From positions 34,743,180 through 34,807,179 of the forward strand of contig OX485808.1 in NCBI GenBank assembly GCA_950295325.1: a DNA stretch of 64,000 nucleotides, in the 5' to 3' direction. Position 1 is the stretch's first letter. Each line of letters begins with the position of its first letter. The notes below the pieces were generated by a model. That model was not told the DNA's origin, ran no database searches, and worked only from the letters and a program-made list of their open reading frames with translations. Position numbers and translations under genes: made by a program. Source of the DNA: Polytrichum commune. Lineage: Eukaryota > Streptophyta > Polytrichopsida > Polytrichales > Polytrichaceae. This document shows positions 898-38,642 of the stretch, one piece after another.

Positions 898-920
898 TTC
901 GTTAACCTCCTCCATGAGTA

Positions 921-4100: not shown

Positions 4101-4164
4101 CGAGTCTGAAGAGGACCCAAGATGTGTCGAAGCAAATGATCCCACAATACGGATTCGAACGTAA
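1159..4164 (+). pseudogene. hAT transposase (BED, DUF659, dimerisation domain), broken copy
   Basis: This is a homologue of the intact transposase at 30901-27704. An N-terminal BED-type finger (CRFC, then AHLGY) is followed by a DUF659-like RNase-H core with CDGW and CTDNA carrying the first two acidic catalytic residues. The C-terminal hAT dimerisation region, with CERNWS, is at 2872-3100. Broken as follows: an in-frame TAA at 2821-2823 where the other copy has a glutamine codon; a frame change near 3110-3120 before the acidic tail; and a deletion of roughly 190 bp near 3845 before the basic GVKRTRKR segment. The start MPRR was chosen because the upstream frame overlaps a splice-acceptor-like leader. 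It is unlikely to make active transposase, though the first 554 residues are open. Confidence 0.88.
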
Positions 4165-15556: not shown

Positions 15557-15564
15557 CCCTTTAA
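15557..15564. repeat. Target-site duplication, left half
   Basis: ccctttaa directly precedes the CAGGG terminus and is repeated exactly at 38635-38642. Eight bases is the standard length for hAT insertions. Confidence 0.93.
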
Positions 15565-15837
15565 CAGGGTTGTCTATCGCGACGTCATGACGGTGTCGTG
15601 CCGTCATGTCGTGTCGTGTCGTGACGGACCCCTCCGTCACGACACAATAGGGTCCACGTAGGGTCAACATAGGGGGAATGGACTAGGGTGGGTAAAATAC
15701 TTACCTTCTTGCCAAGGTGGCGTCCTATGTGGCAGAAAACGCCGACGTGGATGTGCATATTTCCCTTGCCAAGTAAACCATTTTGCCATTGTGTTTATCA
15801 TTCTGTTAAAATCAAAGTAGAAAAATATGACTAAGGA
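15565..15837. repeat. Left terminal region with palindromes
   Basis: The terminus CAGGGTTGTCTAT (15565-15577) is followed by palindrome CGTCATGACG (15583-15592) and then an inverted repeat with arms GTGTCGTGACGGA and its complement around a CCCC loop (15616-15645). The remainder to 15837 is AT-richer and matches copy 1. Repeated CGTCAYGAC-type motifs near hAT ends are expected transposase-binding sites; here that role is inferred. They are dense in CpG, so methylation could affect them. Confidence 0.85.
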
Positions 15838-16250
15838 GGGTGTGGGGCGGCCGGGGGCGGACGGTGGGGCGGACGGGGGAGGGGGGTGGTGCGGACGGCG
15901 GAGGGGGGTGGAGCGGACGGACGGGGGGTGGTGCGGACGGGTGAGGGGGGTGGTGCGGACGGACGGGGGGGTGGAGCGGACGGGGGTGGGGGGTGGAGCG
16001 GACGGGGGAGGGTGGTGGAGCGGACGGACGGGGGTGGGGCGGACGGACGGGGGTGGGGCGGACGGAGGGGGGTGGAGCGGACGGGGGTGGGGGGTGGAGC
16101 GGATGGGGGAGGGGGGGGGGGGGAGCGGACGGAAGGGGGTTGGGAACGGGGGGGGAACGCTGGAGCGGACGGGGGAACGCTGGAGCGGACGGGGGAACGC
16201 GGGGGCGGACGGGGGGAACGCGGAGGGGAGCGGGGGGGAGGGGAACAGCG
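15838..16250. repeat. Satellite A (G-rich, CGGACGGGGG type)
   Basis: More than 20 variants of gcggacggggg(t/a)gg run on the plus strand. It directly follows the left terminal region and is followed by the junction sequence starting gaacagcgtg. Runs of four or more G at short spacing give strong G-quadruplex potential. No promoter or gene is recognised at this block's right edge. Confidence 0.92.
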
Positions 16251-17061
16251 TGCAATTGCGGCCATATATTTTCTTCATATGAATTTTTGAGAGCCAAAAA
16301 ACCAAGACTATGTCCAAACTTCCAAAAAAAAGTGATTGTGAGTTATATAAATATAAATATAAGCAATTGTGAAGAGTCCTTGTGAGAGAATACCATTCAT
16401 AAAATTGCACACCCAATCAAAACTTTATTCAATATCAAGTTTACAAATCACGAGTGAATATGAATCAATGTAACTGGATGTGTAGTTTTTATCATCCATA
16501 TTATGGTTGTATTTCATCCGTTAACGTTTATAGAGTCAGATTTACAAAGAAGGGAGTACCATTTTGTTAACTGGTAACACGTTTAACATTTATAGTGTGC
16601 AATATGTGGGGAGTAGAAGAAAGTTAACATTTAGAGATGTTTAGGATCACGTGTACAACCGATATAACTATTGCAATATTGTGCTCAACTTTAGTTAACT
16701 AGATATAACTATAGTTGACTACATTTTGTGGCATACCAAAATTAGAATAAATATAGCTAACTGCATTTTGGCAAGACATATCACAAACAACTATAGTTAA
16801 CTTGAACTTAGCACATGGATGTGATAACAACGATGTGAAAGAACGATGTGGCCTCACGAGAGGCGAGAACCTTGGTTAGCCTCCCATAGACTTCTTCTCG
16901 ATTATGGAGCAAAAGCCTCATGGAGTATAAACATTGCACTAAGATCCATAAACCTCATACAATATATAAGTTTTGTATGAAAAAATGATGGCTTTATTTA
17001 CATCTCCAACGGTTACAAAATTGGTATGATTCAAAATTATTGCAAAAAAAACAAAAAAAAT
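16251..17061. other. Junction sequence and gene-free stretch before kinase gene
   Basis: It begins with gaacagcgtg and gcggccatatattttc, then tgaatttttgagagcc, a shortened form of the junction unit also at 19626-19790 and 23062-23200. The rest is AT-rich with many stops and probably serves as the 3' region of the minus-strand kinase gene. Confidence 0.6.
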
Positions 17062-18978
17062 CTATTTTGCAGTGTCACGGAAGCACATTGTCGGGTTAAC
17101 CATGTTGTATGGAGGCGACTTCAAAATGTTCACTACGTGTGTGATGGTTGACCTTTCCGCTGGATTGGTCTTCGTCAATGAATCCAATGCTAACTCAAAC
17201 CGCATATTCAAGCCATTTGGATCACTGTTTAGCTGAAACAAGGGGGAAGTTGCATCCCTGGCATAAATCTTCTTTGCCAAAGCACCCACTGAGAAGGACT
17301 CCGAGAGAAACGTGTGCCTATGTTTCCGAGCCATCCTCACGGGAGAGGTGGATGTTCCACGCTGCCCTCGTACATGGAATAATTCTGGACCAGCACAGTT
17401 GTATTTTGCTTTGTGCTTGTTCATCTCATCCACTGAATCTCTTCCATAGTTGGAGGGTGCGTCTTCACCTCCCCAGGATGCCATGCCCCAATCACACACA
17501 CCAATGTAAACCGTGTTCTCACGGTCTTGTGGGAAATGCAGCATGACATTGTTGGGATTAAGGTCATTGTGCAACACGTCATGCTTGTGCACTACATCCA
17601 CAATGCACATTAGAGCCCATGCCAAATAAGCTCGATGCCTTCGATATACAACCAACCGTTTCCGTGCTTCAAAGTCTGCCCCAGGCATGTGAAGGATTGT
17701 GCGCTCGTGGGTTTCCGGAACGCTGAAGTCATAGATCCTCATGTTTTTCAAGGAGCCTCCATTCCACCACATTGAATAGGATTCGTATGTTTTCATATCG
17801 AGGTATTGTAGCTTGATTACCCCAGGATGATCTACTGGACACGCCAATGCTTCAACTGAACGTTCCTTTCGATTCTCCAAACTATTCGTGGCCTTCATGG
17901 TCTTCTCAGCCCACTCTATCCAGCTAGGGATGAATGATGCTCCATGAATTGCGACTCTCCGCACCACTCCGAAGGTCCCTTGGAAGATTTCCTTATCCAA
18001 GGCTTTGATCTCCGCATTCCTAGGCAACCATATGACACCCTGCCGGCCCTGAGTGGCAATGTTGTCTGCCATCTGCCTGTCAATAAAAATGGGAAGGTTG
18101 CGGGCGGATGTTCATTTTGCTGCTATTACGCCTCTTTTCCAATTCTCTAGCTTCATGTACAGCTCGGACTTCCTGCCACTACTACTTCCTTCGCCAGGAT
18201 GCAAAGCATCATATGCCATTGTTGGATTGTAGATTGCTTCCACGGCTTGTTGTTCAATCCAGGTGCCCCAATCGCTCATGCCCCTAGCTTCTTCAAACTC
18301 TGCTCCAGCCGTGGCTTCCGTGAGAATAAGAATCAAATCGTTCCTCACCAACTCCAAACCCTTTGTACCATCATTGAGGTATTTTTTTTCCAAATAAACC
18401 ATGCTGTTATTTCTAAACCACTCCAACAGCACGACCCTACAATGGTTTCGAGCCTCATCGATCCGCGGGTCGCGTTTGCCTCTATTTTTCCTTTTCCTCG
18501 ATTGCGAACCTGATACCCCGGACCCCTCCTCCGTCCCTTCCGAAACTGCTGGGCGTTTCAGTCCCCGTCTTTCACCATGCTCCGAACCCTGAGGTACATC
18601 ACGTGTAGGGCTCTCCGGTCTTGATGTCCGCCGTGTCGGAGATCGTGGTGGCACGGACTCTCCACAAGTGGCTGCATTTATATCTGTGGAACTGCCTGAG
18701 CTTGGTCCCCTTCATGTTCTCCCTCTATGTCCACTGTTTCCCCGACTCCCACGTGTTCCATGGCTTTCACGTGTTTGGTTGCCTCCTGAATGACCAACCG
18801 CAAAGAACTCTTTGTCAAACCGAAAAGGATCTGGACGTGGGGGACGTGCTGCAGTACTTCCACTTCCGGCCTCGCTTCCCGTACCCTCTCCAGTATGCGC
18901 AGGTGCAGTGCTTTGGAGCCAAGAACGGTGCAGCCTCGTATCCTCGTCTTGGTAAGGAGCAATGTCCTCCCCCTCCAT
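17062..18978 (-). CDS. Protein kinase-like cargo gene
   Basis: The C-terminal 336 residues (18072-17062) form a whole kinase domain: Gly-loop-like QGTFGVV (about 31-37), a lysine in AEKTMK, a Glu candidate in RSVEAL, catalytic loop HNDLNPNN (Asp 170, Asn 175), and DWG in place of DFG (Asp 194). Upstream in the same frame lie a basic, Ser/Arg-rich segment and a helical segment (18711-18112), and before that a frame from ATG 18978 (MEGEDIAPYQ) ended by TGA at 18714-18712. A short stop-containing gap at 18114-18073 ends in tttttattgacag and could be an intron. So this is either a spliced gene, or one with one or two stops in which the kinase starts at MADNIATQ. It shares the satellite-plus-TATA promoter layout of the element's own genes. 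Substrate unknown. It may have been captured from the host. Confidence 0.7.
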
Positions 18979-19261
18979 CGTGAAAAAAACCGCGTGAGTG
19001 AGTGAATGTAGAAAGGAGTGAGTGAATGTAGAAATGAGTGCGTGAATCTGGAAAAAAAATTGCGAGGGTTCCCCCACAATTTGCCCTGCCCTCCCAAACC
19101 CCCTGAGACCCGCGCGGTGCCGCTGTCCTTGGGACGGCAACAAGGTCTCGGGTCCCTTTGTGGTGGGAGGAGAGGAAAGTGAGGGGAACTAAAGCCCCAC
19201 GGCTTTATATAGGCAAAAGGGAGCACAATCATTATGGGATCCCGGTCGGATTTGACATGGG
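18979..19261 (-). promoter_or_regulatory. Kinase gene promoter and leader
   Basis: The minus strand reads ctatataaag at 19212-19203, about 225 bp before the ATG at 18978 and about 50 bp from satellite B. The leader contains a short tandem repeat of cattcactcactc type at 18990-19050. Same architecture as the transposase and RING promoters. Confidence 0.6.
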
Positions 19262-19625
19262 GCACGAAAAGGACGTATGGGGAACGTGGGAACGCGGGGG
19301 CGGACGGAGGGAACGAGGGGGCGGACGTAAGGGAACTCGGGCGGACGGAAGGGAACGGAGCGCGGACGGGCGGGAACGGGCGGGAACATGGGGCGGACGG
19401 GAGGGGAACGCGGGGCGGACGGGAGGGGAACGCGGGGCGGACGGAGGGGAACGTCTGGCGGATGGGAGGGGACGCGGTAGGGAACTCGGGCGGACGGAAG
19501 GGAACGGGGAGCGGACGAGAGGGAACGGGAGGGAACGTGAATGCACGGAGGGGGAACATGGGGCGGACGTGAGGGAACTTGGGGCGGACGGGAGGGAACG
19601 TGAGGGAAGGGGGGCAGGGGAACAG
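19262..19625. repeat. Satellite B (G-rich, upstream of kinase gene)
   Basis: Plus-strand units of the form gggaacg-cggacgg(a/g)ggg. The unit contains a GGGAACG spacer more often than satellite A and so resembles satellite C. It lies on the 5' side of the kinase TATA box. Confidence 0.9.
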
Positions 19626-19796
19626 CGTGGAATTGCGGCCATATATTTTCTGGCAGTAGAAATATTATTGCATATTCATGTAGAGGACTTCATTACCTAT
19701 CCATGGATACCAAGAACTCATTTTTTGGACTTCATATGAATTTTTGAGAGCCAAAAAACCGAGACTATGTCCAAACTTTTAAAAAAAAGTGTAAAT
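19626..19796. repeat. Junction unit, copy 2 of 3
   Basis: It starts gaacagcgtg and gcggccatatattttc (as at 16238-16270), then continues with a stretch nearly identical to 23062-23190 (agtagaaatattattgc ... gactatgtccaaact). It sits directly beside satellite B. Copy 1 of 3 at 16251-16335 lacks the middle part. Confidence 0.85.
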
Positions 19797-20386
19797 GACC
19801 GAGTTCACACTATGGCCGTCCAAGTCGAGAGGCCGTGCGATTGAGTGGCCCAACTTTGTTGATAGTCCAAAGAAATGAACTGAAAATAGCCAATAAAATA
19901 TAGTAAGGGTAGCCTTAGTTGGCCTAAGTGTGAAGCCTCCAAAGGCCAAGCGCAAAGTCCAAACCTTTGGCCATGAACTCCCACGGCCTCTCGGCTTGGA
20001 TGGCCAAAGTGTGAAGCCTCCAAAGGCCAAGCCCAAAGTCCAAACTCAAAGGAGCATGCCACTTTATTCTTTGCTCAAAATAACCCCTCCAATCTAACGG
20101 CCAAGATCTTGTCAATGATTGATTATTTTAATGAAAAAAAAGTTCGGCCTCTCGACGGAAGTTTGGGTTGAGCATTTTGCTATACCCAAACTTTGCTCGA
20201 GAGGCCAAACTCTTGGCGCCATAACTTCCTAAAAGTGTTGCCACCTAGGCTCTTTTGGAGGCGACGTCCTTTGGACTTCGGCCTCTAGTGTGAAGGCCGA
20301 GAGGACGGACTTTGGGCATTTCAGCATTTTCATTGGTCCAAATGCTGAACCTCTCAAAGTTTGGCCATATTGTGAACCGGCCCTTA
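19797..20386. mobile_element. MITE with ggccggttcaca-type ends
   Basis: Imperfect terminal inverted repeats: gaccgagttcacactatggcc on the left, and ggccatattgtgaaccgg on the right. The interior holds repeated aaggccaagc(c/g)caaagtccaaa and gcctctcgg motifs in both orientations, and no coding sequence. It is nested in the cargo module just after the junction unit. I could not settle the target duplication, so the superfamily (hAT-like or Harbinger-like) is open. Confidence 0.6.
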
Positions 20387-21435
20387 GATTTGCAATACAT
20401 GTCTTATTCTTTTTTTGGCACAAATTGAAAATTCAAATTGAAAATACAACCAACCCAGCCGAAACAGCGCAGCCTAAGTGGAAATCTAGAAATAATGCTC
20501 ATTTGAGGCCTATCCTTCCAAGTAGGGACTAAGTTGCTACGGGTCACAATAAGACCTTTGACCCTCCAAATCAAATCAAATTTGTTAAGAATGTCATGGT
20601 AGGCCACGTCCGGGGCTTTTTCCAAGTCCCTAAGCATCTGTTTCCATTCAATCCTCCCATACTCTGATTTGTAATACATGTCATAAAAGCTAATGCAATT
20701 ATTGTTTTGAAGTCTACCATCAAATGATATGTAAGATCGTATGTTCACTTGTGGTTGGTTCTTTTTATGTACCAGTTTAAGCCAATACTAAAATAAAATA
20801 AACCTTATTCTATAAAATCTAGTGACACTACCATACAAGTTAGTAGAGATGTTGTATATTTTTTAAAATTATTCTATATATTTACATAACTACAACTTAT
20901 AATTTTGTGAAGAATATGTATACATAATACAACAAAGTTCAAATCAATACCTCTTTTGTGCACTCACATATACTCATACAGATTTAGTATAGTGCACCCC
21001 CCCCAAATGATCACTAATGTGGGCCACATTAAATTTAAGCCCACACCAAATCCCTAGTTTAATATCAATGTGGACCATATTAATTTGCTTTTCTAGAATG
21101 TTCTAATTTGTGTAAGGTGTTGGTAAGATATCTTTATGAAGCCTATAGGAACTCGGGGGATACACTCTACATTATGTTTGAGAATCACGTGCGTTCATGA
21201 CCCCTTCTAAAAACCCCAATGTATACCATAAGTTATATGTCTAAGTAGAGATTGTACCAACTTGAAGTAGTCCTCGCGATTTGCGAACGTTTAACTTTCG
21301 TTGTAGGCATCGTAAAAAAAAGCGGGTGGATCCGTTGGAAAGCTGGGAACCTAAACCCTCAAACCATGTATGGAAACACTTCTACATGACTGTGAGAACA
21401 AAACAACGGCACATATGTGGTAGCAATTTGGAATG
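20387..21435. other. Cargo stretch with possible gene fragment
   Basis: On the minus strand, 20748-20404 is open for 114 codons (with CISFYDMYYKSEYGR and later PTWKDRPQ). It looks more protein-like than random sequence but I recognise no family; it could be a captured exon. The remainder to 21435 is AT-rich and without features. Confidence 0.3.
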
Positions 21436-21437
21436 AC

Positions 21438-21468
21438 GTAGGGTTTAGGGTTTAGGGTTTAGGGTTTA
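21438..21468 (+). repeat. Interstitial telomere-like tract
   Basis: Four adjoining gggttta units, the plant telomere repeat. It is much too short to be a telomere. It abuts the 82 bp tandem repeat directly. Confidence 0.85.
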
Positions 21469-21469
21469 T

Positions 21470-21780
21470 GAACCACAAAGGTTGAAGCACAAATATGTGA
21501 ATTGTTGAATGAAAGGGCAAGGGGATGCGTGTGGGTTGTGAAACCATACGAACCACTAAGGTTGAAGCTCAAATATGTGAATTGTTGAATGAAGATGGCA
21601 TTCGGATGCCTGATATGCGTTGTGAAACCATATGGACCACAAAGGTTGAAGCACAAATATGTACTTTGTTGAATTAAAATGGCATTCGAATGCGTGTGGG
21701 TTGTGAAACCATACGAACCACTAAGGTTGAAGCACAAATATGTGATTTGTTGAATGAAAGGACAACCCATCAAATATAGA
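21470..21780. repeat. Tandem repeat, four units of about 82 bp
   Basis: Units begin gaaccac(t/a)aaggttgaagc at 21470, 21550, 21634 and 21715 and carry caaatatgtg and gttgtgaaaccata. A minus-strand frame (21845-21459) stays open through the repeat with a 27-residue period, but this probably reflects the repeat itself. Confidence 0.85.
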
Positions 21781-22025
21781 AGCTTCAAAGAGGTATCAAA
21801 GAGGTTTCTAATGCGGGTGTCGGGGGACTTTTTCAAAAAGTGCAACTAACTTTTTGACTTCACCAACTTTTTTTTTATTCCTATTGTGTTGTCTTTATCT
21901 TACCAACGAGAATTGGATCCTCTACATCTTGGATTACATCAAATATTGTATATTTCATAAAGTCCTTTGAGCTCAGTATATAAGTAGAGCATTTAGACTC
22001 ATACATATAACGAGGGTAGAGTATC

Positions 22026-22580
22026 ATGGATAGGATGGGAGAGAAGAGAGACATGTTTGAGGGTCTAGGATGTGATGAGGAGATAGAAAATTTAGGTGAT
22101 TCCGATATTCCATTCAATCCATCATCCGAGCGTGAAAGAGATGAGAGAAGTGCTAGAGATCGATTTCGTGATGACTATGTCATGACCCCCTTTTTACAAT
22201 CTACACAAGCATGAAAGTTGAGGGCGGAGGAGGACCAACGACGATATGCAGCGAAATTCGAAATCAATGCAGTGGAGAAGGACCTAACAAAAAGCGTGGG
22301 TGGAGATCCAAATGATGTGGTTGATTTGAGCGTGGATATTTGGGTGAAGCCCGGGGATGTGGATGACAATTCAATCGACATTGAAGATGTCAAGGTAGCG
22401 GGAGAATCTTCAAGGACTTTGCATTTTCGTAAGAAGAGGAGAGGATTATCGCCTCATCGGCTACCATTGAAAGAACGGATGAAAGACCGAACGATTAGCT
22501 ATGTTGATTTACTTCGACCGAATCCTCTCCAAAAAATGGACCCTCGACGGAAGCCACAAGCATCTACGAGGTTGCCATGA
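22026..22580 (+). pseudogene. Small charged protein frame with one stop
   Basis: One reading frame of 185 codons is interrupted only by TGA at 22212-22214. The first part is acidic and Arg-rich (MDRMGEKRDMFEG, SSERERDERSARDRF). The second has DPNDVVDLSVDIW and a basic segment FRKKRRGL. No family recognised. A TATA-like or satellite promoter is not visible in front of it. It may be the last exon of a captured gene or a leftover of a DNA-binding protein. Confidence 0.35.
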
Positions 22581-23061
22581 CGGAAGTCAAGTTGACGGAA
22601 TGAAGTGGAATATTAAATCGTGCATGGTTTGTTCATGTATGTGATTTATAAAGGACATTTGTACCGTCGTCGCAATAATAAAGTTATTACTTGTACAATA
22701 TGTTGTACCACTTCTATGATATTTTTTTTATTTAAAATTTCAACCAACCGCTTATTATTGCATACTTCTATGCATGTTCATCGTTGTCTTACAAATTTTG
22801 AAATTTTAATATTATATATAGAATAGCAAATATGTGTATTTTAGTGTATTTGTCCTTATGACAAATTGTTGTATAGATAAAAAATCTCCATAGGGGTGAT
22901 AATTTGTTGGTCATCATACTACATTGGTTACTTTGTTGCTTGAGGGATCCTTCATTAGTTTTGTGTGGATAAGTACACCGGTAATGATATTTTGTGTCAC
23001 ATATATTATTTGCGAAGGGCCTAAGTTAGATGGGGTGCGGATGGGGGGACGCGGGAATGTG
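22581..23061. other. Gene-free cargo DNA
   Basis: AT-rich DNA with no supported gene. It ends in a short satellite-like patch (ggtgcggatggggggacg, 23035-23056) directly before the third junction unit. Confidence 0.5.
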
Positions 23062-23202
23062 CAGTAGAAATATTATTGCATATTCATGTAGAGGACTTCA
23101 TTACCTATCCATGGATACCAAGAACTCATTTTTTGGACTTCATATGAATTTTTGAGAGCCAAAAAACCGAGACTATGTCCAAACTTCCAAAAAAAGTTAA
23201 AA
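23062..23202. repeat. Junction unit, copy 3 of 3
   Basis: Nearly identical to 19655-19780 over about 120 bp, from agtagaaatattattgc to gactatgtccaaact. It lies between a satellite patch and satellite C. Confidence 0.88.
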
Positions 23203-23697
23203 AGTGCAGATTCAAGGGGAACTCGGGAGCGGACGTATGGGAACGCTAGAGCGGACGCATGGGAACTCTAAAGCAGACGTAGGGGAACATGGAGCGGACT
23301 TATGGGAACGTTGGAGCGGACGTAAGGGAACATGGAGCGGACGGGGGGAACGCGATAGCGGACTGAGGGGAGCGGACGGAGGGGAACATGGGGCAGACGG
23401 AGGGGAACTAAGGGGCGGACGTAGGGAACGAGGGGGCGGACGTACTGGAACGCAGGAGGGCGGGCGGGCGGACGGAAGGGAACGGAGCGCGGACGGGCGG
23501 GAACGGGAGGGAACGTGGAGCGGAAGGAGGGGAACATGGGGCGGACGTGGGGGAACGCGGGGACGGGGGGGAACGCGGGGGGCGGACGTAAGGGAACGGG
23601 CGCGGACGGGAGGGAACGGGTGCGGACGGGGGCGGGAACGGGTGCGGACTGGGGGGGAACGGGTGCGAACAGGGTGGGAACGGGGAGCAGATGGAGG
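23203..23697. repeat. Satellite C (G-rich, upstream of RING gene)
   Basis: Plus-strand units such as gggaacg(t/c)(t/g)ggagcggacg and gggaacgggtgcggac. It runs straight into the TATA box at 23700. The RING coding strand carries the G-rich form here and in copy 1, whereas the transposase and kinase genes see the C-rich form. Confidence 0.92.
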
Positions 23698-24730
23698 GGT
23701 ATATAAGTGGAGGGGACCACTTACATACCCCACTCCACTCCTTGTGGGCGCCCGGACGACCCTCCTCTACTACAGAGTGCGGGGTAGCGAGGTGCTCGGA
23801 GGAGTTAAGGATCCCTTTTTTGGGATCCTTTTATACTTTTTTTACTGACCTGTTTGTGGGTGTGATCCACGTGGACCCCCCGGGTACGCAACTCCCGTAT
23901 TATATGGTCCTGATTATAATCACTTATAATGCGTTTTAGTCCAATATTGAGTGATACAATTTGTTTTAATGTAGGAAACCCTTGTAGCCCTTCTAACAAG
24001 GAATCCAAAAATGTAATTATATATAGGAAATGAATATATTTTGAAGCATATAATTGCATTAAAAACCTAATTATATGATTTTTTTTTAATACAGGTACCA
24101 TAGGTCAAACTACCCAACATTTTGGATTTTTTAATAAAATTTTAACATTGTGAATGAATTATAATTTTAATGGGAGGCAACTATTCGTGGCTTATAATTT
24201 TAATGGGAGGCTTAATAAATATGCAACCCAACTTTTTTTTCATCTCATTTTATTTGATTTGGTCTTTACCCAATTTTTTTTTTATCTCATTTTATTTAAT
24301 TTGGTCTTCACCCAACTTTTTGATCATTTTAATTTGATATAATTTGATATAATTTTTACAAAAGCCGTCCTCTAAGCCGTTTTAAGTACGATGCCCCCTG
24401 CGTATAATATGGGAGTTGCGTACCCGGGGTGGACCCGTTCCCTTGTGACGTGGCATATTGCATTTTTGGCATATTCCTTGTGACGCGCCCAGTCAACTGG
24501 CCTCTGCGTGAGCGTTGGTAGCGGGGTGCTCGAAGGGTGTGCTGAATTTTTGAACTTCAACTTTTAACGACATTTTTGAACTAATTCCACAGCAACACTA
24601 TTTTGAAGTGTATGCTTGGATGTTTTGTAGCACTATTATGAAGTGCAATTAGTAATTTAAAAATTAGAGTTCTAGATTAGAATTAGAAACTACAATTTGG
24701 GTGGATACGGTAAGTGAAGGATTTCCAGAC
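23698..24730 (+). promoter_or_regulatory. RING gene promoter and extended leader, copy 2
   Basis: TATA box tatataag at 23700-23707, at the satellite edge. The leader matches copy 1 up to about 23870 and again from about 24547; between them lies the inverted-repeat insertion 23873-24435 plus about 110 bp. The box-to-ATG distance is therefore about 1 kb instead of about 340 bp, so transcription or splicing of this copy may be altered. Confidence 0.6.
23873..24435. mobile_element. Small inverted-repeat element nested in RING leader
   Basis: Terminal arms of about 32 bp: left arm 23873-23904 containing gggtacgcaactcccgtatt, right arm 24403-24435 with its complement (aatatgggagttgcgtaccc). The interior is AT-rich and noncoding, with a tandemly repeated ttttatctcattttattt segment. 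Copy 1 lacks it, so it arrived after the copies separated. Superfamily not determined. Confidence 0.7.
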
Positions 24731-27703: not shown

Positions 27704-30700
27704 TTACGTTCGAATCCGTACTGTGGGATCATTTGCTTCGACACATCTTGGGTCCTCTTCAGACTCGTCTGTGCTGCAATCATCATCCGTTTGGGGAGTC
27801 GCGCTCCGAAGATGCAACTCTCGGTCACGTTGTGAGAAAATTATCTTCTTGGTCGGCCGGGAGCCCTCTGCATCATGTATGCCATTTTCATCTAGATGTG
27901 GTCTACCCTCATCTTCATTGTAGTCTTCAGCAGTAAACGGAAGCGATCTTCCCTGATACCTCTTCCTAGTACGTTTGACACCTCTCGTAGTTCTCTGACG
28001 CCCTCCACCCGTACCACGACTTGAGTGCACTTCATCTCTAATTCCATCTATAAAAACATCCCCCGTTGTACTTCTGCCTCCAACTCCAAGGCCACCTGTT
28101 CCGTTGGATTGACTGTGTGGAAGTGAAACTGATGCGGATGGAATTGCAATTGGTATGTTCTCAACAACATGTCGACGAACAGATTGACAACGTGGCGCCT
28201 CTGTAGTAACATTTCTTGAAACATTGTGTATAGCAACCAAAGTAGCACCCACCGCAGTTGCACGTGAAACACCCAATCCAGAAGTATTGGCAATACTTCG
28301 AGTGAGAGGACGACGTTGACCTTGTGCATGCACTTGCACCGTAGAGGTTGATGCAATTCTTTGAAGAGCACGGAATCGAGTTGTAGGCATTTCAAGAACA
28401 TTGGGCGTTTGATCTTCTATACGATGGTTGGATATGAGGGAGGCGTCCATGGATTCAGAATGTACTCGGGCTGGAAGTGGATCCTGTTGAACGTGCGTTG
28501 GCTCATTTGCGGGTAGTACATTGTCACCTTCACCAAAAGAAAGAGAATCGCTCCGAGGTTGCAAGGAATCTACTTCAATTCCTACATTCTCACTTGCCCC
28601 CATAGCAACATTATGGTCAGGGCGAAACCCTTGTCCAGTGTGGAGAGTTTCAAAAGGCGGTCCTCCAATAGACCCCTCATGATCGTCATGCATTCCGTCG
28701 TTATGTTGGGGGACATCCGGTTCATCAAAATCAAACACCCCAAGATTTCCATCACTACCATTGCCATCCTCATCTTCTGAATCATGATTCTCGGAATCGA
28801 GGTCATCCAAATTAAAGTCGATGTCATCAACATTGTTGTCATCATCATTTCCGGCCCTATCATTTGGATCCACGTCATCTTCGTTGTCATCTTCTTCGTC
28901 AAGGTCATCGTCAGAATGGACCTCATTCAATTCGTACCATTGCGCAGGTCTTGGGCCCCTCCGATGTCGAATGAGCCTACTATTGGTATATATGTAGACG
29001 AGGTCCTCGGCACGACTATGCTTCAAGCGATTGCGACTCTTGTTGTGAACATATGAATACATGCTCCAATTGCGTTCACATGCGGATGCGGAACATACTT
29101 GTGCAAGGATACGTCTTGCTATTGTTTGGAGGGCTTTAGCTCCACCTCCCATTGCATCCCACCATTCATGGAGAGGTGCGGCATGCACGCTCGGGTCAGT
29201 AGAATCAGCAAAAGGCCCTCGATTTTCAAGGAAATCTTGGTACTGGTGGAGGATTTGGACATAAGTATCCTCATCTTGAGCAAGCCTGCGAAGAACTCGA
29301 TTTAGGATTGTCCTCGAATTCTCATCCTCATGGAGTGGGGCCCAACCACATAGAAGCGGATTTAACATCGCTCCAGCCCAATGTAGATCATTCAACATCA
29401 ACCTCCATCTATTTTGAAACGTTAGCATAGCATTTGCAGCAAGCTCAGGGCTTAAGCGAAATGGAGGTTTACTGAATCCACGAATATGGGTTTGTAAATC
29501 ATGCATGACCCTCCAAGCCATTCCCATTGCAGGCGCCTTGCCATCAAATACACGAAGAGCTTTAACAACCGGGATCACCATATACAAGAAATTTTCGCAC
29601 GTGTTCCAGAATCCATCAGAACGTATAAAGCTTCGCACAGCAGAGCCCTTCATGTAAGAGGTGCAAGATCTCCTCCTCATATCACGCATTAGAGTAGGCC
29701 AATCCTCATCAACCACCATTCTTTCCAAAGCATTGCGTACTTGGAGAAGACGTTCTATCATGATGAAGTTCGTTGCAAAACGGGTCTCTACAGGTAGGCG
29801 GAGTGAGAGATTTGGTGACAACCTCCGGAATATAGCTTGAGAAGCATGATGGTTTTTAACAAATACACAAATATGGCGCGCTTTTTTTACCAACTTTTTC
29901 ACCCATTCCTCCTTCCCCCAATCTTCTAAGAGGAGATCTAGGCAATGTGCAGCACATCCTTGAAAATATAGATCGGGATTTGCTCGAATCAAGTCGCGAG
30001 CAGCGGAGGCCATAACTGGGGCATTGTCGGTGCAAACTTGGACCACATTATGTCGACCAACCTTTTCCACAAATGGTTGAATTTGAGCAGCAACGTAGAC
30101 ATGATCCTTGTGATTTCCCGTGGTGTCAATGGTACCCAAGAAAATGTCTCCCTTTGTGCTACATTGAAGAACGTTTAGGAGAGGTCGGTTTTGCACGTTG
30201 TCCCATCCATCATAACATATTGTAACGCCATATTTGTCAACGGAATTCCCCAACTTCTCCTTCACTTGCCTATCTAGGTCAACCTTTTTATCAGTTAACA
30301 ACTTCGTACGGATGGCATTGTACGATGGTGGTGTGTAGGCTGGCATTCGATGATGGGCAGTTTCACGCACAGCATGAACAAATGCAGGATGTCTCACAAT
30401 GTTGAAAGGAATGTTAGCTTCATAAAAAGCCGTTGCCCATGCTCTATCAAGGAGTTGTTTTGTTGACACATTGAACCCCTCCGTTATGTTGAGTTGACGT
30501 AGTTCACGAGGAGGTGTGCCATATATCACAACATCAGAATGTTGAGTGGATTGGGACATAAGCAAAGGCTCTGTTTCACTAATTACGAAGTCCGCTATAA
30601 TAGGCTCCAGAGGTACAATATCTGGCACCGGAGAGTCCTCATTTACAATGCCTACATGTAAGGGCACAATGCCTCCGCAATGTTCAAACAAGACCCTAAT

Positions 30701-30901
30701 ATGCGGGGGTACCATCCTACATGTGGAAACATCACAAGCACCCCCTACAGGAGGTCTATAACCAAGGTGGGCCAACATTCTATTTCCTCGGTAAGATATG
30801 ACGAACGGGCAAAACCTACATTTAACCTGCCTTTGTGATTTACCGGGAACCATCCCCTTATCCTCGTACCAATGATCCCATGCATCATTTCGGCGTGGCA
30901 T
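27704..30901 (-). CDS. hAT transposase, intact 1065-residue frame
   Basis: Cuts and joins the element's ends. Order: BED-type zinc finger (residues about 4-65; Cys 28, Cys 31, then AHLGYRP); DUF659/RNase-H core with Asp 231 (YDGWDN) and Asp 292 (CTDNAP); GCAAHCLDLLLED; helical insertion; hAT dimerisation region with the third acidic residue in CERNWS (about Glu 608), WWDAMGGG before it, and KSRNRLKHSRAEDLVY after it. A long tail follows: acidic Asp-rich segment (about 680-760), Ser/Thr/Pro-rich linker, basic GVKRTRKRYQGR. Typical hAT transposases are 600-800 residues, so the tail is extra. No stop or frame break. MPRR was taken as the start because the upstream sequence looks like a leader intron acceptor (tttgtatttgcag). 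Confidence 0.92.
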   Translation of the reverse strand: MPRRNDAWDHWYEDKGMVPGKSQRQVKCRFCPFVISYRGNRMLAHLGYRPPVGGACDVSTCRMVPPHIRVLFEHCGGIVPLHVGIVNEDSPVPDIVPLEPIIADFVISETEPLLMSQSTQHSDVVIYGTPPRELRQLNITEGFNVSTKQLLDRAWATAFYEANIPFNIVRHPAFVHAVRETAHHRMPAYTPPSYNAIRTKLLTDKKVDLDRQVKEKLGNSVDKYGVTICYDGWDNVQNRPLLNVLQCSTKGDIFLGTIDTTGNHKDHVYVAAQIQPFVEKVGRHNVVQVCTDNAPVMASAARDLIRANPDLYFQGCAAHCLDLLLEDWGKEEWVKKLVKKARHICVFVKNHHASQAIFRRLSPNLSLRLPVETRFATNFIMIERLLQVRNALERMVVDEDWPTLMRDMRRRSCTSYMKGSAVRSFIRSDGFWNTCENFLYMVIPVVKALRVFDGKAPAMGMAWRVMHDLQTHIRGFSKPPFRLSPELAANAMLTFQNRWRLMLNDLHWAGAMLNPLLCGWAPLHEDENSRTILNRVLRRLAQDEDTYVQILHQYQDFLENRGPFADSTDPSVHAAPLHEWWDAMGGGAKALQTIARRILAQVCSASACERNWSMYSYVHNKSRNRLKHSRAEDLVYIYTNSRLIRHRRGPRPAQWYELNEVHSDDDLDEEDDNEDDVDPNDRAGNDDDNNVDDIDFNLDDLDSENHDSEDEDGNGSDGNLGVFDFDEPDVPQHNDGMHDDHEGSIGGPPFETLHTGQGFRPDHNVAMGASENVGIEVDSLQPRSDSLSFGEGDNVLPANEPTHVQQDPLPARVHSESMDASLISNHRIEDQTPNVLEMPTTRFRALQRIASTSTVQVHAQGQRRPLTRSIANTSGLGVSRATAVGATLVAIHNVSRNVTTEAPRCQSVRRHVVENIPIAIPSASVSLPHSQSNGTGGLGVGGRSTTGDVFIDGIRDEVHSSRGTGGGRQRTTRGVKRTRKRYQGRSLPFTAEDYNEDEGRPHLDENGIHDAEGSRPTKKIIFSQRDRELHLRSATPQTDDDCSTDESEEDPRCVEANDPTVRIRT

Positions 30902-31144
30902 GACTTCAACAAAACCTGCAAATACAAACAAGTTAGAGCAAGTAACTTTGATCGCATACTAGGTCCTGTTCAAGAGTGCCACAAGGGCAACCCTAATTCA
31001 CAGTCACTAGATTGGACAAAGTATCCTCAGCATTCGGGTCTCACGCATTCAATCCTCACTCCTCAAAGGAGAATCAAAAGACTTGAGACACACTATGTCA
31101 GTGGAGGCAAAAATGGCACCTTGAACCCTCAATTTATAGTATTC
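30902..31144 (-). promoter_or_regulatory. Transposase promoter and leader, copy 2
   Basis: The minus strand reads actataaatt at 31140-31131, a few bases from satellite D. The leader is closely conserved with copy 1 (930-1158). Two leader features recur in both: gtgtctcaag after the box and the splice-acceptor-like tttgtatttgcag before the ATG. Confidence 0.65.
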
Positions 31145-31331
31145 GAATCGGACGGGGGAGCGGACGGGGAGCGGACGGGGAGCGGACGGAGGGGGGGAGC
31201 GGACGGGGGAGCGGACGAGGGAGCGGACGGGGGAGCGGACGAGGGAGCGGACGGACGGGGGGGGAGCGGATGGGGGGGGAGCGGACGGGGGAGCGGACGG
31301 ACGGGGGGGGGAGCGGACGGGAGAGGGGGGG
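31145..31331. repeat. Satellite D, proximal part
   Basis: Plus-strand array of gcggacgggggga-type units beside the transposase TATA box. It is split from its distal part (38311-38402) by the LTR element. Confidence 0.9.
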
Positions 31332-32312
31332 TGTCGCAACCCTTGCTAGCCCCCCTTGACAATCTTGCCAATTTTCAATTCTAGCAAAGGTTACGAGTGC
31401 TAACCATTCGCATTCCGCCATGCTAATGATTAGCTCCTCCTACCCCGGACCTTATAGTTCATAGGAGGGAACCAACCCTCCTACTTTGCTTTCGGGACTC
31501 ACCCCTTAATCGGTAACCCATTCCTAGATGTGGACTTCCATCCATGGAAGTCCAATCCCATGTTGATCATCGCGTTGCCGGAGCAACACTACAACAACCC
31601 GAACCATACTAGGCAACTATAGCCTCACAATGGGCCAATGCCCATGGAGGCCTTGCCGTTCGGCCTCGGGTGGGTGAGGCCACAGCACCTCACCCATATA
31701 AGCCTCTAGGACTTCACGCGGGGCCCCTACCCCACCGTCAACCAACCTCTTGTCTCTCTACCAAGAGTTGGGGCCAAGTGGACATTTTCCTTTAGCTGCT
31801 GGGCCTAGAACCCCCCCCCCCCCCAGCAGCTTCAGACCATCATAACTTCCTTGTATGATGTCCGATCATAACAACCAACCACTCCATCCTCATCTACGCG
31901 TCACGTAGATGCCGATGGACTCCTCACTTGCCCCATTTGAGCAAGTCTTGAGGAAGTTATGCCTGTTTGAACCTTGGCAGTCCCGGGAATCACTCCCAGG
32001 CACTGCTGTACCAGGGCGCTGTCCCGGGACAGCGCCCCACTCAAATGGCAATAACTCCTAGCTCACACCTCCGATTGAGGTGTTCTTGAGCTTTCTAGAA
32101 TCACCACGCCATGAGCTACGCATAACTCATGGCTTTACCCTTGTGCCTCCTAATATTCGTGGGTGGGAGGCGTTCCCAACGCCCGGGGCCCTCACCCACA
32201 CTAGGATCACTTGGGCCCTCTCACCAACGGCGCCACAAGTCCCGGGTGTCACTCCGGGGTCCCCCTTGTGCCCATGGTGTTTCGGGCACTCCTCATGGAG
32301 AGGTGCGCGACA
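31332..32312 (-). repeat. 3' LTR of the Gypsy element
   Basis: 981 bp, beginning tgtcgcaacc and ending gcgcgaca on the plus strand. A purine-rich tract (ggtgggggtgag on the minus strand) adjoins it on the internal side. Confidence 0.88.
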
Positions 32313-35300
32313 CTCACCCCCACCAAACGGAGTCGATGCCCTCATCGACTATACTCGTAGTCGGCACACCAATTCTCAAGTTGCCATCCTCTATGGTGCG
32401 GCATTGTGTTTACCTTAGGGCGCGACCCCCACAATGCATCTTCATATTTGGCATAGTCCCAAAGGTGTCGTTCCTAGGTGGTCCGTTAGCGATCTTGGAT
32501 CTCTCCTCCAAGGACCTAAACTACACTAGACCCACCTACTTTGGGACTCACTTGGGTTGCCCCTCCTTTGGGGCCTCCCCCGTTAGGCTCCACTAGCCTA
32601 ACATGACACATCTAGGCGAGACCTCAACGCTTCCACTAAGTTGTCTCGGTTGCAACTCCGAGATGGCTTTCCATTGTTAAGCCATGCCTCGATCGCACGG
32701 GGGTGATGCCAAGTCCCGCCCGACTCGGTTCCCACTTTGCTCTTTCGAGACATGGGTTCATGACTCCCATGCGCCAACTTTCGTTCGCTCGCGGGTAGCA
32801 CTTTTATGAGCACGCGCCATCACCTTGTCCCCGCCCGGACAAGCCCACAACTAAGAAGTTTCTTGGTTTTATCCAAGGCCCCTCCAAGCCATGGCCCCCA
32901 ATTACTCGGCTTACCCAACCTAGTTTGGCATATCTATTCCCCCTCTTCCATTAACCAAGCACAAGTACAAGACTAGGACCTCATCTCATACTTTTCTCTT
33001 TGCACCACTAAAGTTTGGACTTTATTCTCTCAAGCCAAAGATCAAGTTCATGTTGTGGAGCAATTAGCCTCGAAGCTAAGTGTGCTACTAGCGTCTCTCC
33101 CCCACTAAAGGAGATTGATGTCCTCATCAATGCCTACGCTTCATTTTATTGGAATGTCTAGCCTTAGTTTCTTCAAAGTGCTTTACCAATTCCTTGCCGT
33201 TCATCATGTCCCTTTTCATTTGGGCTTCCTACACTTGAGGATGCCCTCTTACCTCATGTTCCAAATGACGTCCACAAGGTCGGGAGGTGGCCTAATCACT
33301 TGCTTGTGATCGGGCCACAAGGTGTCGTCCTTAAATGGCTTTAGGAATGAGACATAAAATGTCGGATGCACTTTGATCTCGGGCGGTAATTCCAAATTAT
33401 ACATGTCCTTGAACATTTGTTCCACAATGGAAAACGAAGCTCCAATTTTGGACATGAACTTTGGAGTGAGGCCTTCCGGCTAAGTGAAGTTGTTCACATT
33501 CAACAACACCTTTTGGCCCACCTCATTCTCCACTTCGCGTCTTCCGGCATTCACTTGCACTTCGTAGCACCTTCGGGCTTTCTCCACCAACAACTTGGTC
33601 AACTTCAAGATTTGTTTACCATCCTTGGCCAAGTCCTCACCATCTTGGTTGAACTCTAGTGTTGAATGTGCCCCCTCGAGAGCTAGGTTAATAGGTTGGA
33701 GCGCATCCACTCCATAAGCCACCACGAAAGACCACCCGTTGGTAGCCAAGTGCGTGGCTACATTGCAATTACACTCCGCTCGACCCACATAGTCCGCCCA
33801 ATCTCCTTGGTCCGCCCCCACCAAGTTCCTCAAGCATTGCTTCAAGACTCCATTCACACGCTCCGCTTTCCCATCCATTTGGGAATGTAAGGCCGTGCTA
33901 AACCTTAGTTTCATTCCGACCTCCTTAGAGAAATGCATTGAAAATGCACTTGTGAACTTTGGATCTTGATCCCACACAATCACTCTCGGCAACCCGTGGT
34001 GCCTCAACCATCCTTTGAGAAAAGACTATGCGGTCTCCAACGCGGTGGCGGTTCCCACAATCGGCACCATGTGTGCCAACTTGGCCAAACGCTCTACCAT
34101 CAACAAGATGGCATCATACCCATGTGACTCCGGCAAACTTGTGATCCAGTCCATGCACATACTATGTCATGGTCCCGGCGGGATAGACAACGGTTGCAAG
34201 AAACCGCCTTGCTTTTGGTAAGAGGCTCGGGTCACTTGGCACTTCATCCAAGCCTTCACAAAGTGGGTTATATCCTCTTTTATGCACTGCCAATGGTACC
34301 TCCTTGACACCATTCTACGGCGGTTTTTTCTTTCTCCTCTATGGCCGGCAATAGGACTATCATATTCCTCCTTCAAAACCAATAGCCTCAACTTGCCTTG
34401 TGGCACATACACCCGACTTTGTTTACACTTGAACAATCCGTCCACCAACTTAACCTCCTTGAGCACCTTGCTCTTGCGAAGCTCACCTAAAAGCATTTGT
34501 GCTTTGGGGTAGTAAATTTACCCCTCCCGTATCTTGCATCACAAGTTTCCTTCGCCGGCACACATTAGCCACAAGGTTTGGATGGTTCTCATTGCTTGGA
34601 ACTCTTCCCGTCTACTTAGCGCATCCGGCACCACATTTCCACGGTCCAGTTTGTGGATTAGATCCACCTTCATAAGCGCCAAGCTATCATGCCAACGCAA
34701 TGACTTGGCGCTCACTTGCGCTTGTATGTCAAAATACTTTTAGGACACATTGTCCTTGTAGACCTTTACTTTGTGCGACCCCAACTAGTGTCGCCACATC
34801 TTCAAGTAATGCACTACCGCAAAGAAGTTCTTTGTCATGAGTTGGTTGTCTTCTTTGACAACCATCGAGCTTCATGCTCGCATATGCAATGGCCATCCAT
34901 CTTACACATAATCCACCATTGGCAAAATCACTCACCCCCGTATGCACCTCAAATGGTTTGTCAAGCTCCGCGAACTTGAGTACGGGCGGCGAAGAGAACT
35001 TGGCCTTAAGCTCCCCAAAGACTCGTGACAAACATCATCCCACTCTTGGGATAGCCATTTCTTCCACAAGTCGAACCATCGAGCTTCATGCTCTCATATG
35101 CAATGGCCATCCATCTTGCATCAACATCCGCCAATGGTAAAGTCACTCGCCCCCCGTATGCACCTCAAAAGGTTTTTCAAGCTCCGCGAACTTGAACACG
35201 GGTGGTAAAGAGGAACTTGGTTTTAAGCTCCTCAAAGACTTGGTGGCAAGGCTCATCCCACTCTTGGGATAGCCATTTCTTGCACAAGTTGGACAAGCTT

Positions 35301-37332
35301 TTACAACCATGGAGCTTAATGCTCCCATAAGCAATGGTCATCCATCTTGGATCAACATCCGCCAATGGTAAAGTCCTTCGCCTTCATGTGCACCTCAACA
35401 TGCTCATGAAAACCCGGAAATTTAACCACATCTTGTGAAGAGAACTTGCTCTTGAGCTCCCCAAAGGCTTGGTGACAAGGCTCATCCCACTCTTGGGATA
35501 GCCATTTTTTCCAACATGTTAACTAAGGTTCTAGCAACCTTAGAAAAACCATGAATGAAGTGGTGGTAGTAGTTGGCTAGGCCAACAAATGACCTAAGCC
35601 CTTTTCTTGAGTCAAGGGCCAATTCTCTTTTTGGATTGCCTTGACATTCTTCATGTTCGTCCACCAACTTCCTTTGTCACCACATACCTCAAGAACTCAA
35701 TCTCTCGTTGAGCAAAGTTATTTTTCACTTCTTGGCGGTAACTTTTTGGGCAACACATTGGTGAATACATCCTTGTATCTCACCAACATCCCACCAATGT
35801 GGTTTGGAGGAGGCCCATCTTTCCTAGCCTCCCTATACATTCCTTGGAGTTGCTCCAATTGAACCACGACCATTATGTTTTCTATTTTTCATTTGGTCCA
35901 TTAAGACCAAATTCAACTTGGGTCCTCCTACCATAGGAGTCCTTGTCAATTTGAACTTCAATTCTTTTCCATTATGACACATCATAATGCACCGCAAGCT
36001 CACCGGCTTGCACCTCACATCTATCATGTGAGTTTCAAAGTAGGTGGCCTTCACAATGACATGCATTTCATCTATTTCACATGGTGTGAAATTTTGACAA
36101 AAATCCAATGTCCCACATTGAAAGGTTACATGCATCGCGGCCTCCTTTGTCTCATGTGGTTCGCCCTTTCCAAACCGCACCTTGGTGGGCTTGCCCGCTC
36201 TATCAATCGGCAAGCCCCAACTCCCTTGTGAATTTTGGGCTCAAGAAGGAATGGTTTGCCTCTTTGTCAACCCATGAGACATTTCTCCCATTCATTTGAG
36301 CCTCAAGGTACAAAAGACTTGGCCTCGGCTTAAGGCTACTAGCCTTGGCCACAATGCCATCGTCTTACATTTGGTCCTCCGCAACTTGGCTTGGCTTGGT
36401 CCGCAAAGCCAACTTTAAACAATTCGTCCGCGGGACAAATTGGTTTGGTGCCACAAAACCAATTTCTAATAGTTTGTCCGCAAAACAAACATGTTTTGCC
36501 TTGGTAGCACAAAGCCACCTTCCCACACTCCGTCCGCGGCACAAACATGAATTGCCTTGGTAGGACAAACCCACCTCCCAACATTCCGTCCGCGGCACAA
36601 GTATGATTTGCTTTGGAAGCATAAACCACCTTTCAACATTCCGTCCGCGGCACCAACATGTTTTGCCTAAGTAAAATGGACCAAACAATTTGCACTCATT
36701 TCTTTGGGACCTACTTTGGCTAAAGCCACTTGTGGTGATGCGCCGCCAAACTTCTCTTTGGGACCATCGGCTTCAATGCTCTTGCAAACTTGATGGTCCC
36801 CACCATGTCCTCAAGAAGCCTTGGGGACTTAAACAGGGCATCCACCACCCGCTTTTAAAACCCCACCTAAAAGGATGCATTTCTTAGAAAACTCGTCCGT
36901 TTTAGGTGTATCCTTCATTTGTGCGTTTGAATAGCACACATAGGCCTTAAGAGGCCCCGGGTGCCTCATTAGCACCAAATTCATTCCAACATCAATACCT
37001 TACAAGCATTTCGAATTGGAATTTAAATCCAACATAAATGCCCTCCAAGGTTTTGGGTGCTTTCGGTATTCTAGGCCCCAAATGTTTTTTGAGGTTTGCG
37101 GGAGCCCTTTTCAAAGCACTCCTCCATTTTCCTTACCAAATCCACCCTCATGCCCACCATTGTCATTAGAACCAATGGTATGGTCAAATTCCACTTGCAC
37201 ATGATCCTTGTTCCAATTTGAGCCTCACAACCTTTTGGAAACCCCGGGCTCACCATCATAACCCGCATTTTTGATAGCCATGTTTCCCTCGAAGTGCGAG
37301 CTCAAAACTTGGAACCCTGCTCTGATACCAAA

Positions 37333-38310
37333 TGTCGCAACCCTTGCTAGCCCCCCTTGACAATCTTGCCAATTTTCAATTCTAGCAAAGGTTACGAGTG
37401 CTAACCATTCGCATTCCGCCATGCTAATGATTAGCTCCTCCTACCCCGGACCTTATAGTTCATAGGAGGGAACCAACCCTCCTACTTTGCTTTCGGGACT
37501 CACCCCTTAATCGGTAACCCATTCCTAGATGTGGACTTCCATCCATGGAAGTCCAATCCCATGTTGATCATCGCGTTGCCGGAGCAACACTACAACAACC
37601 CGAACCATACTAGGCAACTATAGCCTCACAATGGGCCAATGCCCATGGAGGCCTTGCCGTTCGGCCTCGGGTGGGTGAGGCCACAGCACCTCACCCATAT
37701 AAGCCTCTAGGACTTCACGCGGGGCCCCTACCCCACCGTCAACCAACCTCTTGTCTCTCTACCAAGAGTTGGGGCCAAGTGGACATTTTCCTTTAGCTGC
37801 TGGGCCTAGAACCCCCCCCCCCAGCAGCTTCAGACCATCATAACTTCCTTGTATGATGTCCGATCATAACAACCAACCACTCCATCCTCATCTACGCGTC
37901 ACGTAGATGCCGATGGACTCCTCACTTGCCCCATTTGAGCAAGTCTTGAGGAAGTTATGCCTGTTTGAACCTTGGCAGTCACGGGAATCACTCCCAGGCA
38001 CTGCTGTACCAGGGCGCTGTCCCGGGACAGCGCCCCACTCAAATGGCAATAACTCCTAGCTCACACCTCCGATTGAGGTGTTCTTGAGCTTTCTAGAATC
38101 ACCACGCCATGAGCTACGCATAACTCATGGCTTTACCCTTGTGCCTCCTAATATTCGTGGGTGGGAGGCGTTCCCAACGCCCGGGGCCCTCACCCACACT
38201 AGGATCACTTGGGCCCTCTCACCAACGGCGCCACAAGTCCCGGGTGTCACTCCGGGGTCCCCCTTGTGCCCATGGTGTTTCGGGCACTCCTCATGGAGAG
38301 GTGCGCGACA
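37333..38310 (-). repeat. 5' LTR of the Gypsy element
   Basis: 978 bp, matching the other LTR almost base for base. Two bases separate it from the tRNA-Met primer site. Confidence 0.88.
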
Positions 38311-38402
38311 GGGGGGGGCGGACGGTGGGGAACGGGAGCGGACGGTGGGGAACGGGGGCGAACGGGGGTTGGGAACGGAGGCGGACAGGGGGGCGGACGG
38401 GC
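38311..38402. repeat. Satellite D, distal part
   Basis: Continues the G-rich array (gcggacggtggggaacggg) on the far side of the LTR element and joins the right terminal region. Confidence 0.85.
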
Positions 38403-38634
38403 TCTAGTAAAATTTTCCCCACTTTACCTTTACTTTGCTGACATGTCATCACACGTGGACATTGTAAATCCTACGTGTCATAAATGGGTTAATGTAATTA
38501 CACAAAAAAATCGGTAAAATTCAAGTCCGTCAGGATAAAGACAGCATCCGGCATAATGTCGTGACGGATACGTGTCGTGACGGCACGACATTATGCCGGG
38601 ATTACCCTCCGTCACGACACAATAGACAACCCTG
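38403..38634. repeat. Right terminal region of the 23 kb hAT element
   Basis: It contains a 16 bp perfect inverted repeat: CCGGCATAATGTCGTG at 38548-38563, with its complement at 38584-38599 around a loop with another GTCGTGACGG. Then ccgtcacgacacaatag and the terminus acaaccctg ending at 38634. It differs from the left end beyond the terminus except for the GTCGTGACGG-type motifs. Confidence 0.88.
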
Positions 38635-38642
38635 CCCTTTAA
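38635..38642. repeat. Target-site duplication, right half
   Basis: ccctttaa, identical to 15557-15564. Confidence 0.93.

Follow-up and report, generated by a model that had tools for sequence, protein, structure and literature searches.

A large hAT transposon of Polytrichum commune with RING-like and protein-kinase genes beside its transposase, very probably one copy of a multicopy family

Few DNA transposons have been studied as thoroughly as hAT elements, which usually consist of one transposase gene between two ends, a few kilobases in all. We analyzed a 64,000-bp stretch of the Polytrichum commune genome (contig OX485808.1, here C6; C6:34743180-34807179 of a 407.8-Mb, 64-contig assembly), which we call the window, and within it a much longer element, B, at window positions 15565-38634. 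B is very probably one copy of a multicopy, autonomous, three-gene hAT family that moves by transposition. In its basic form of about 15.6 kb, the family would encode a DUF659/hAT transposase, a RING/coiled-coil protein and a protein kinase. It is unusually large and gene-rich for hAT elements.

With hAT elements of the Ac/Tam3 type and their DUF659 plant branch, the B family shares inverted ends, 8-bp duplications, DUF659 and Dimer_Tnp_hAT domains, subterminal repeats and short non-autonomous derivatives. It departs from their usual form in its length (about 15.6 kb), its two further genes and the arrays before its genes. Terminal inverted repeats of hAT elements are 5-27 bp long in the available text of PMC12506042. 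MuDR and VANDAL elements also combine a transposase with element-encoded accessory proteins and non-coding motif arrays (PMC6446971; PMC5735166), but they belong to another superfamily, MUDR makes 9-10 bp duplications (PMC6446971), and the accessible parts of these papers do not describe the accessory proteins as RING or kinase proteins. VANC21 of VANDAL21 is reported there to bind arrays of motifs, all in one orientation, in non-coding regions, accompanied by loss of methylation (PMC5735166), and by analogy VANC21/VANDAL21 would be the closest model in layout.

Two fungal systems also invite comparison. ToxhAT/ToxTA of wheat-pathogen fungi is 14 kb long, carries non-transposase genes and was formerly called a hAT, but the portion of PMC12506042 available to us places it nearer Tc1/mariner, with a TA duplication and 74-bp ends, and gives it as likely non-autonomous and single-copy. 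The B family, in contrast, has 8-bp duplications, its own transposase and many copies. Starships are likewise large multi-gene DNA transposons of fungi, but the same partial text defines them by a DUF3435 tyrosine recombinase (PMC12506042), whereas the B family has a hAT transposase, inverted ends and 8-bp duplications. The original prediction, made from the window's sequence alone, had likened B to giant fungal elements. Size is the part of that likeness that stands: the ends and duplications are of hAT type, and Pfam scans of the main open reading frames (ORFs) found no tyrosine recombinase; as DUF3435 had no match in the ORFs scanned, B is not a Starship by that definition. A search of titles and abstracts in the open-licence literature found no plant hAT with RING and kinase genes, which is weak evidence of absence because it covered open-licence papers only. 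The word "hAT" does not occur in the available text of a review of giant transposons (PMC6431247) or of a 2026 review of plant gene capture (PMC13317346).

Examination of the ends confirmed what had been predicted of the size and borders of B. The element is 23,070 bp long and is bounded by exact 13-bp inverted ends, CAGGGTTGTCTAT, at 15565-15577 (+) and 38622-38634 (-), with identical 8-bp flanks, ccctttaa, at 15557-15564 and 38635-38642. Since a long terminal repeat (LTR) retrotransposon (31332-38310) is nested within one of its G-rich arrays, B without this later insertion would measure about 16.1 kb; the two LTRs are 99.6% identical to each other. The features of B, in window coordinates, are:

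15557-15564, no strand: left target-site duplication ccctttaa
15565-15857, plus strand: left terminal region, with the 13-bp inverted end CAGGGTTGTCTAT and subterminal repeats GTCGTGACGG/CCGTCACGAC
15835-16244, plus strand: GGACGG-rich array 1, subterminal
17062-18978, minus strand: protein-kinase gene, with two in-frame stops in the B copy
19288-19627, plus strand: GGACGG-rich array 2, upstream of the kinase TATA box (near 19210)
19653-23195, no strand: spacer between 135-bp direct repeats (19653-19787 and 23061-23195)
20590-20597: unoccupied target AATGTCAT inside the spacer, whose counterpart elsewhere is filled by a sibling element
23249-23670, plus strand: GGACGG-rich array 3, upstream of the RING TATA box (near 23700)
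24701-27001, plus strand: RING/coiled-coil accessory gene, with a premature stop at 26611 in the B copy
27704-30901, minus strand: hAT transposase, uninterrupted, about 1,065 amino acids (DUF659 and Dimer_Tnp_hAT)
31149-31331, plus strand: GGACGG-rich array 4, upstream of the transposase TATA box (near 31135)
31332-38310, minus strand: nested LTR retrotransposon, a later insertion into the array; its integrase-like frame is weak (rve, E 0.2)
38311-38400, plus strand: GGACGG-rich array 5, right subterminal, meeting array 4 across the LTR insertion
38401-38634, minus strand: right terminal region, finishing in the inverted 13-bp end
38635-38642, no strand: right target-site duplication ccctttaa

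The transposase frame (27704-30958, minus strand) is uninterrupted and scored well above the Pfam cut-offs for both DUF659 (E=4.6e-35; 121 bits, cut-off 34.7) and Dimer_Tnp_hAT (E=3.7e-10; 39.9 bits, cut-off 21.4). In an alignment of 16 sequences, D250, C335, H338 and E628 were invariant and D311 nearly so; we take these to be the hAT catalytic positions. The named relatives come from land plants, apart from one with the identifier Chlat, presumably Chlorokybus, an alga. B thus has the marks of a hAT element: the 8-bp duplication, the 13-bp inverted ends and a Dimer_Tnp_hAT transposase with conserved residues. The transposase would bind the 13-bp ends and the nearby GTCGTGACGG repeats, move the whole unit by cut-and-paste and mobilize short derivatives in trans.

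We searched the whole genome (408 Mb) for further copies, as the original prediction had proposed, and found other paired ends with 8-bp duplications. There were 292 exact left ends and 392 exact right ends, while reversed control patterns gave none. On contig C1, where all ends were considered, 56 left and 77 right ends formed 34 facing pairs within 45 kb. In 500 random shifts, the mean number of pairs was 1.2 and the maximum 5, and we reject chance pairing. (On contig C2, pairing took in just 9 of 35 left ends and 19 of 23 listed right ends, and C2 pairs are excluded from every count save one pair whose flanks were read.) The C1 pairs fell into two size groups, 21 at 0.5-2.7 kb and 13 at 15.0-35.8 kb; 11 of the 13 long pairs span 15.0-18.4 kb. 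The first 20 left ends listed comprised 11 short complete elements, seven long kinase-bearing elements and two ends that form an inverted pair. All 11 short elements, which are deletion derivatives, retain the ends together with 2-46 array motifs, and nine have perfect 8-bp duplications, with the other two matching at 7/8. A search for relatives among viral contigs found none (one pattern match there, L001).

Two of these loci are arranged unusually. At L029/L030 (C1 24.626 and 24.636 Mb), two left ends face each other 10.8 kb apart with ATTTTTGT outside each, and the 10 kb read from each end holds none of the three genes; this is an inverted duplication rather than a single element. At L009 (C1 7131924-7134219), the end of a short family member coincides with the start of a partial kinase match, and because of this L009 probably sits within an older kinase copy.

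We determined whether the long copies behave as single units. Both flanks were read for 17 long copies (B, element A, L013, L016, L022, L024, L025, L026, L027 and eight further copies, seven on C1 and one on C2), and 14 of these have perfect 8-bp duplications. The 14 correspond to 12 distinct insertions, since L025, L026 and L027 (C1 21.87, 21.92 and 21.95 Mb) share one flank and count as one. These three also have nearly identical kinase sequences and are a segmental duplication of element-holding DNA. An empty site was found as well. L022 (15,635 bp) is inserted at AATGTCAT within the former spacer of another copy, and the same target is unfilled, with a single AATGTCAT, in five siblings (B, L013, L016, L024 and L025). 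This comparison of sequences supports a large hAT that carries extra genes and transposes as a whole, and to that extent bears out the earlier description of B as a cargo-carrying hAT. Cut-and-paste by the hAT transposase would follow from the anatomy, the empty site and the known behavior of hAT elements. It is hardly credible that the ends of a small standard hAT merely bracket unrelated genes or that two insertions mimic one element, even though short members are common (21 of 34 C1 pairs) and the flanks of A do not match: an empty site exists for a copy of 15,635 bp, 14 of 17 long copies have perfect duplications, and 11 of 13 long C1 pairs fall between 15.0 and 18.4 kb.

A second member of the family, element A, is older and lies partly within the window; the original prediction did not mention it, and its left end is at window 8011-8023:

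C6:34734134-34751202 (window part 1-8023), minus strand: element A, 17,069 bp, with RING at 4761-7085 (minus strand) and a broken transposase at 1282-4161 (plus strand)

Both the RING and the transposase frames of A are broken, and its kinase and right end lie to the left of the window. A reading from the window alone, that A has no kinase, was wrong, as the kinase lies beyond the window on A's other side. We also reject two unrelated ends for A, since its far end is of the right-end type and 90% identical, although its flanks remain unmatched. In contrast to B, the modules of A run RING, transposase, spacer, kinase. For the A-B pair, dS (silent differences) is about 0.26 for RING and 0.09 for the transposase; this unequal divergence suggests, from sequence, exchange between copies.

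The kinase gene (17062-18978, minus strand) is supported by profile and predicted fold, although the B copy has two in-frame stops. For the kinase sequence P0001, Pkinase fell just under its Pfam cut-off (29.6 vs 31.7 bits) and the related APH just over (24.8 vs 23.2). The best Foldseek match of its predicted model (mean confidence score, pLDDT, 79.5) was RET kinase (E 2.7e-9; TM-score 0.43 for the query and 0.63 for the target). A search of solved structures with the kinase sequence found none. Among 29 aligned relatives, H278, N279, D304, W305 and G306 are invariant or nearly so; the HND aspartate is the consensus residue yet falls below 90%. Motif searches in 119 relatives, many of them fragments, recovered HxDLxxNN in 44, DWG in 69 and GKTxKA in 27. 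Judged from the model and these motifs, the accessory gene has the predicted fold and catalytic motifs of a protein kinase. Scoring of 95 among 212 candidates gave P0001 at least 96 matching stretches at no fewer than 95 places; counted by eye, 60 of these 96 stretches are stop-free within the matched part. The full frame was followed in seven copies and is uninterrupted in L013, L016, L022 and L024 but interrupted in B, A and L025. At 23 of the 34 kinase loci listed on C1 and C2, an exact left end lies within 6 kb on the correct side, where 0.12 would be expected. We reject the kinase as a separate nested hAT, as no further end (with up to two mismatches) lies inside B.

The RING frame of B stops at 26611, and the alignable gene extends to 27001. 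Although the window copy (23.6 bits) and its near relative P0188 (25.6 bits) score below the Pfam RING cut-off of 27.3, the relative P0187 passes it at 37.0 bits, so the RING-like gene is real by comparison with its kin. One RING-H2 ligand histidine is absent from the clade of P0188 and the window copy but is kept in P0187, P0189 and P0193. In a long coiled coil of the protein, a low-confidence model places helices at 259-294 and 310-421; solved structures gave weak RNF38-type matches only. P0188 matches at least 58 loci (58 of 269 candidates scored). Thus, of the genes ascribed to B by the original prediction, the transposase is intact and the RING-like and kinase genes are genuine, but the latter two are slightly broken in this copy.

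B has CGGACGG clusters at five positions, all on one strand, and A has two, on the opposite strand. Apart from these clusters, the window contains a single match at 10282 and three minus-strand matches within the nested LTR element. Comparison of gene copies revealed an array and a TATA box no more than 160 bp apart upstream of 17 of 21, while in 32.7 kb of flanking control DNA the array motif lay within 160 bp on either side of 2 of 26 TATA-like sites. In the copies whose kinase lies on the same strand as RING (L013, L016 and L022), the array is inverted together with the kinase. The kinase module may have been inverted and relocated within the element, perhaps via recombination between arrays. 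By pairwise dS, without a tree, the transposases of L013, L016 and L022 stand apart from those of B, L024 and L025, matching kinase orientation.

We next considered whether the RING and kinase genes are constituents of the element. A kinase lies within 25 kb of 50 of the 58 listed RING loci, where 0.67 would be expected; this comparison used 95 of 96 kinase and 58 of 62 RING matches, the remainder being second fragments of listed loci. The kinase is upstream of RING on the same strand in 34 cases, upstream on the opposite strand, as in B, in 14, and downstream, as in A, in two. Among the matches listed, 12 of the 13 long C1 pairs contain the kinase and 10 contain RING. In seven long copies compared directly, RING and kinase were present in all, with RING truncated in one; the L022 RING, which is not among the RING matches listed, proved to be frameshifted. 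Pack-type elements carry host gene fragments that differ between copies and have no transposase. The seven long copies instead share the same genes and a transposase of their own.

Relatives outside this genome hold parts of the same set. Contig L002 has a transposase end (51% identical), an uninterrupted 875-codon RING frame (47% identical) and a GGACGG array. Between L002 and B, silent differences for the two genes are 0.75 and 0.79, near saturation, and replacement differences 0.29 and 0.35. This contig (CADCWO010000266.1) is binned with a cyanobacterial assembly yet has eukaryotic transposon content, a case of contamination in the public record. In P0002 and P0119, from other data sets, a transposase tail is fused to the kinase at different points; these fusions are consistent with deletions in a B-type gene order, although misassembly of short contigs could also produce them. 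Within the genome, summed dN (replacement differences) over summed dS between copies was 0.36 for the transposase (7 copies), 0.45 for RING (6) and 0.64 for the kinase (9), with the truncated L016 RING excluded, the first part of the L022 RING used and the transposase limited to its first 609 codons. For the kinase of A against other copies, the ratio was 0.49-0.59.

These data bear on a rival account, in which an ordinary hAT picked up RING and kinase genes from its host in recent times, as passengers, and then multiplied in one genome. In its favor, the position and orientation of the kinase vary, most scored RING copies are broken or partial, proteins of the kinase family occur on many other contigs (their transposon context is not shown), and no distant relative was seen with all three genes. 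Yet RING, transposase and array are also combined in a relative of about 50% identity, where protein change is restrained, and transposase-kinase fusions occur in other data sets. In addition, a contig size of 418,933 bp appears in both the transposase and kinase lists and one of 476,656 bp in both the RING and kinase lists, which suggests shared contigs, positions being absent from the lists. Each gene in B also has the same array-TATA layout. Copies have the genes in common, change in them is restrained and they occupy similar positions behind arrays; on these grounds passenger cargo is the less likely reading, and we consider this account improbable. The RING and kinase genes appear to be integral parts of the element, and the captured-passenger sense of the earlier description is not supported.

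Several observations weigh against an autonomous family with three constituent genes. Three of the 17 long copies lack matching flanks: A, with CCTTCAAT / CCCAATGA, and L013 and L016. The flanks of L013 and L016 are exactly exchanged (CTCGCGGG/ACATGCAC vs ACATGCAC/CTCGCGGG), and the two copies (L013-L015 at C1 2.33-2.37 Mb and L016-L018 at 2.52-2.53 Mb) lie in opposite orientations with about 154 kb between them. Such an exchange is expected from inversion by recombination between two copies, or from their joint transposition, pointing to an inversion between transposon copies. One 17.4-kb pair with a perfect duplication (C1 36339445-36356855) has neither kinase nor RING among the matches listed. 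The array-TATA arrangement was not seen in 4 of the 21 gene copies: the L024 kinase, the L013 and L016 RING genes and the L024 transposase, whose upstream DNA was mostly not retrieved. Some kinase pairs have dN/dS above 1 (2.07-2.14 for decayed L025-L027 against L013/L016), and selection on the kinase is less firmly shown because its value of 0.64 includes such pairs. The kinase query (446 residues) also omits the first 190 or so codons, where A has stops. The RING structure model is poor (pLDDT 45.6), and just 5 of the 58 listed RING loci are full length without a stop, most being broken or partial; for this reason, the element may not need the RING gene or may obtain its product in trans.

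The chances are about even that RING and kinase serve the family as accessory proteins. RING, as a ubiquitin-ligase-like adaptor, and the kinase could keep the element expressed, or could modify either the transposase or the host's factors for silencing or repair, in a role comparable to that of VANC in VANDAL or the second protein of MuDR. Less surely, the arrays could be shared binding sites that join the genes in one element-specific regulon. A narrower possibility, which we entertain tentatively, is that kinase and RING shield the element from host silencing or rival elements rather than act in transposition itself. The conserved kinase columns favor this, as does the likeness of the arrays to those bound by VANC21 in the accessible part of PMC5735166. 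That likeness is one of layout only, and the HND aspartate falls short of 90% conservation. A broader proposal is possible though short of probable: B may represent a modular class of giant hAT elements with their own regulators, a ubiquitin-ligase-like RING protein and a kinase, in which every gene would be driven through one element-specific GGACGG array type, present at both ends as well. The arrays would act as binding sites, upstream promoter elements and recombination points that invert and permute modules between fixed ends. Such a class would be the hAT equivalent of mobile elements that carry several genes, conserved helpers among them.

The numerous 15-18 kb copies show that cut-and-paste elements can carry a small set of genes that recurs from copy to copy, and the three module arrangements provide material for studying gene shuffling inside transposons. 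With this family one can also ask directly whether transposons counter host silencing by phosphorylation and ubiquitin-type control.

Elsewhere in the window, a fragment at 53005-53234 is 97% identical to the interior of the nested LTR element, on the opposite strand. A dispersed repeat pair, about 76% identical, lies at 13063-13747 and 58124-59369, and a tandem duplication of about 690 bp, 94% identical, at 47092-48443. A 570-codon open frame at 55864-57576, with a repeat period of 72 bp, matches the leucine-rich repeats of resistance-type proteins.

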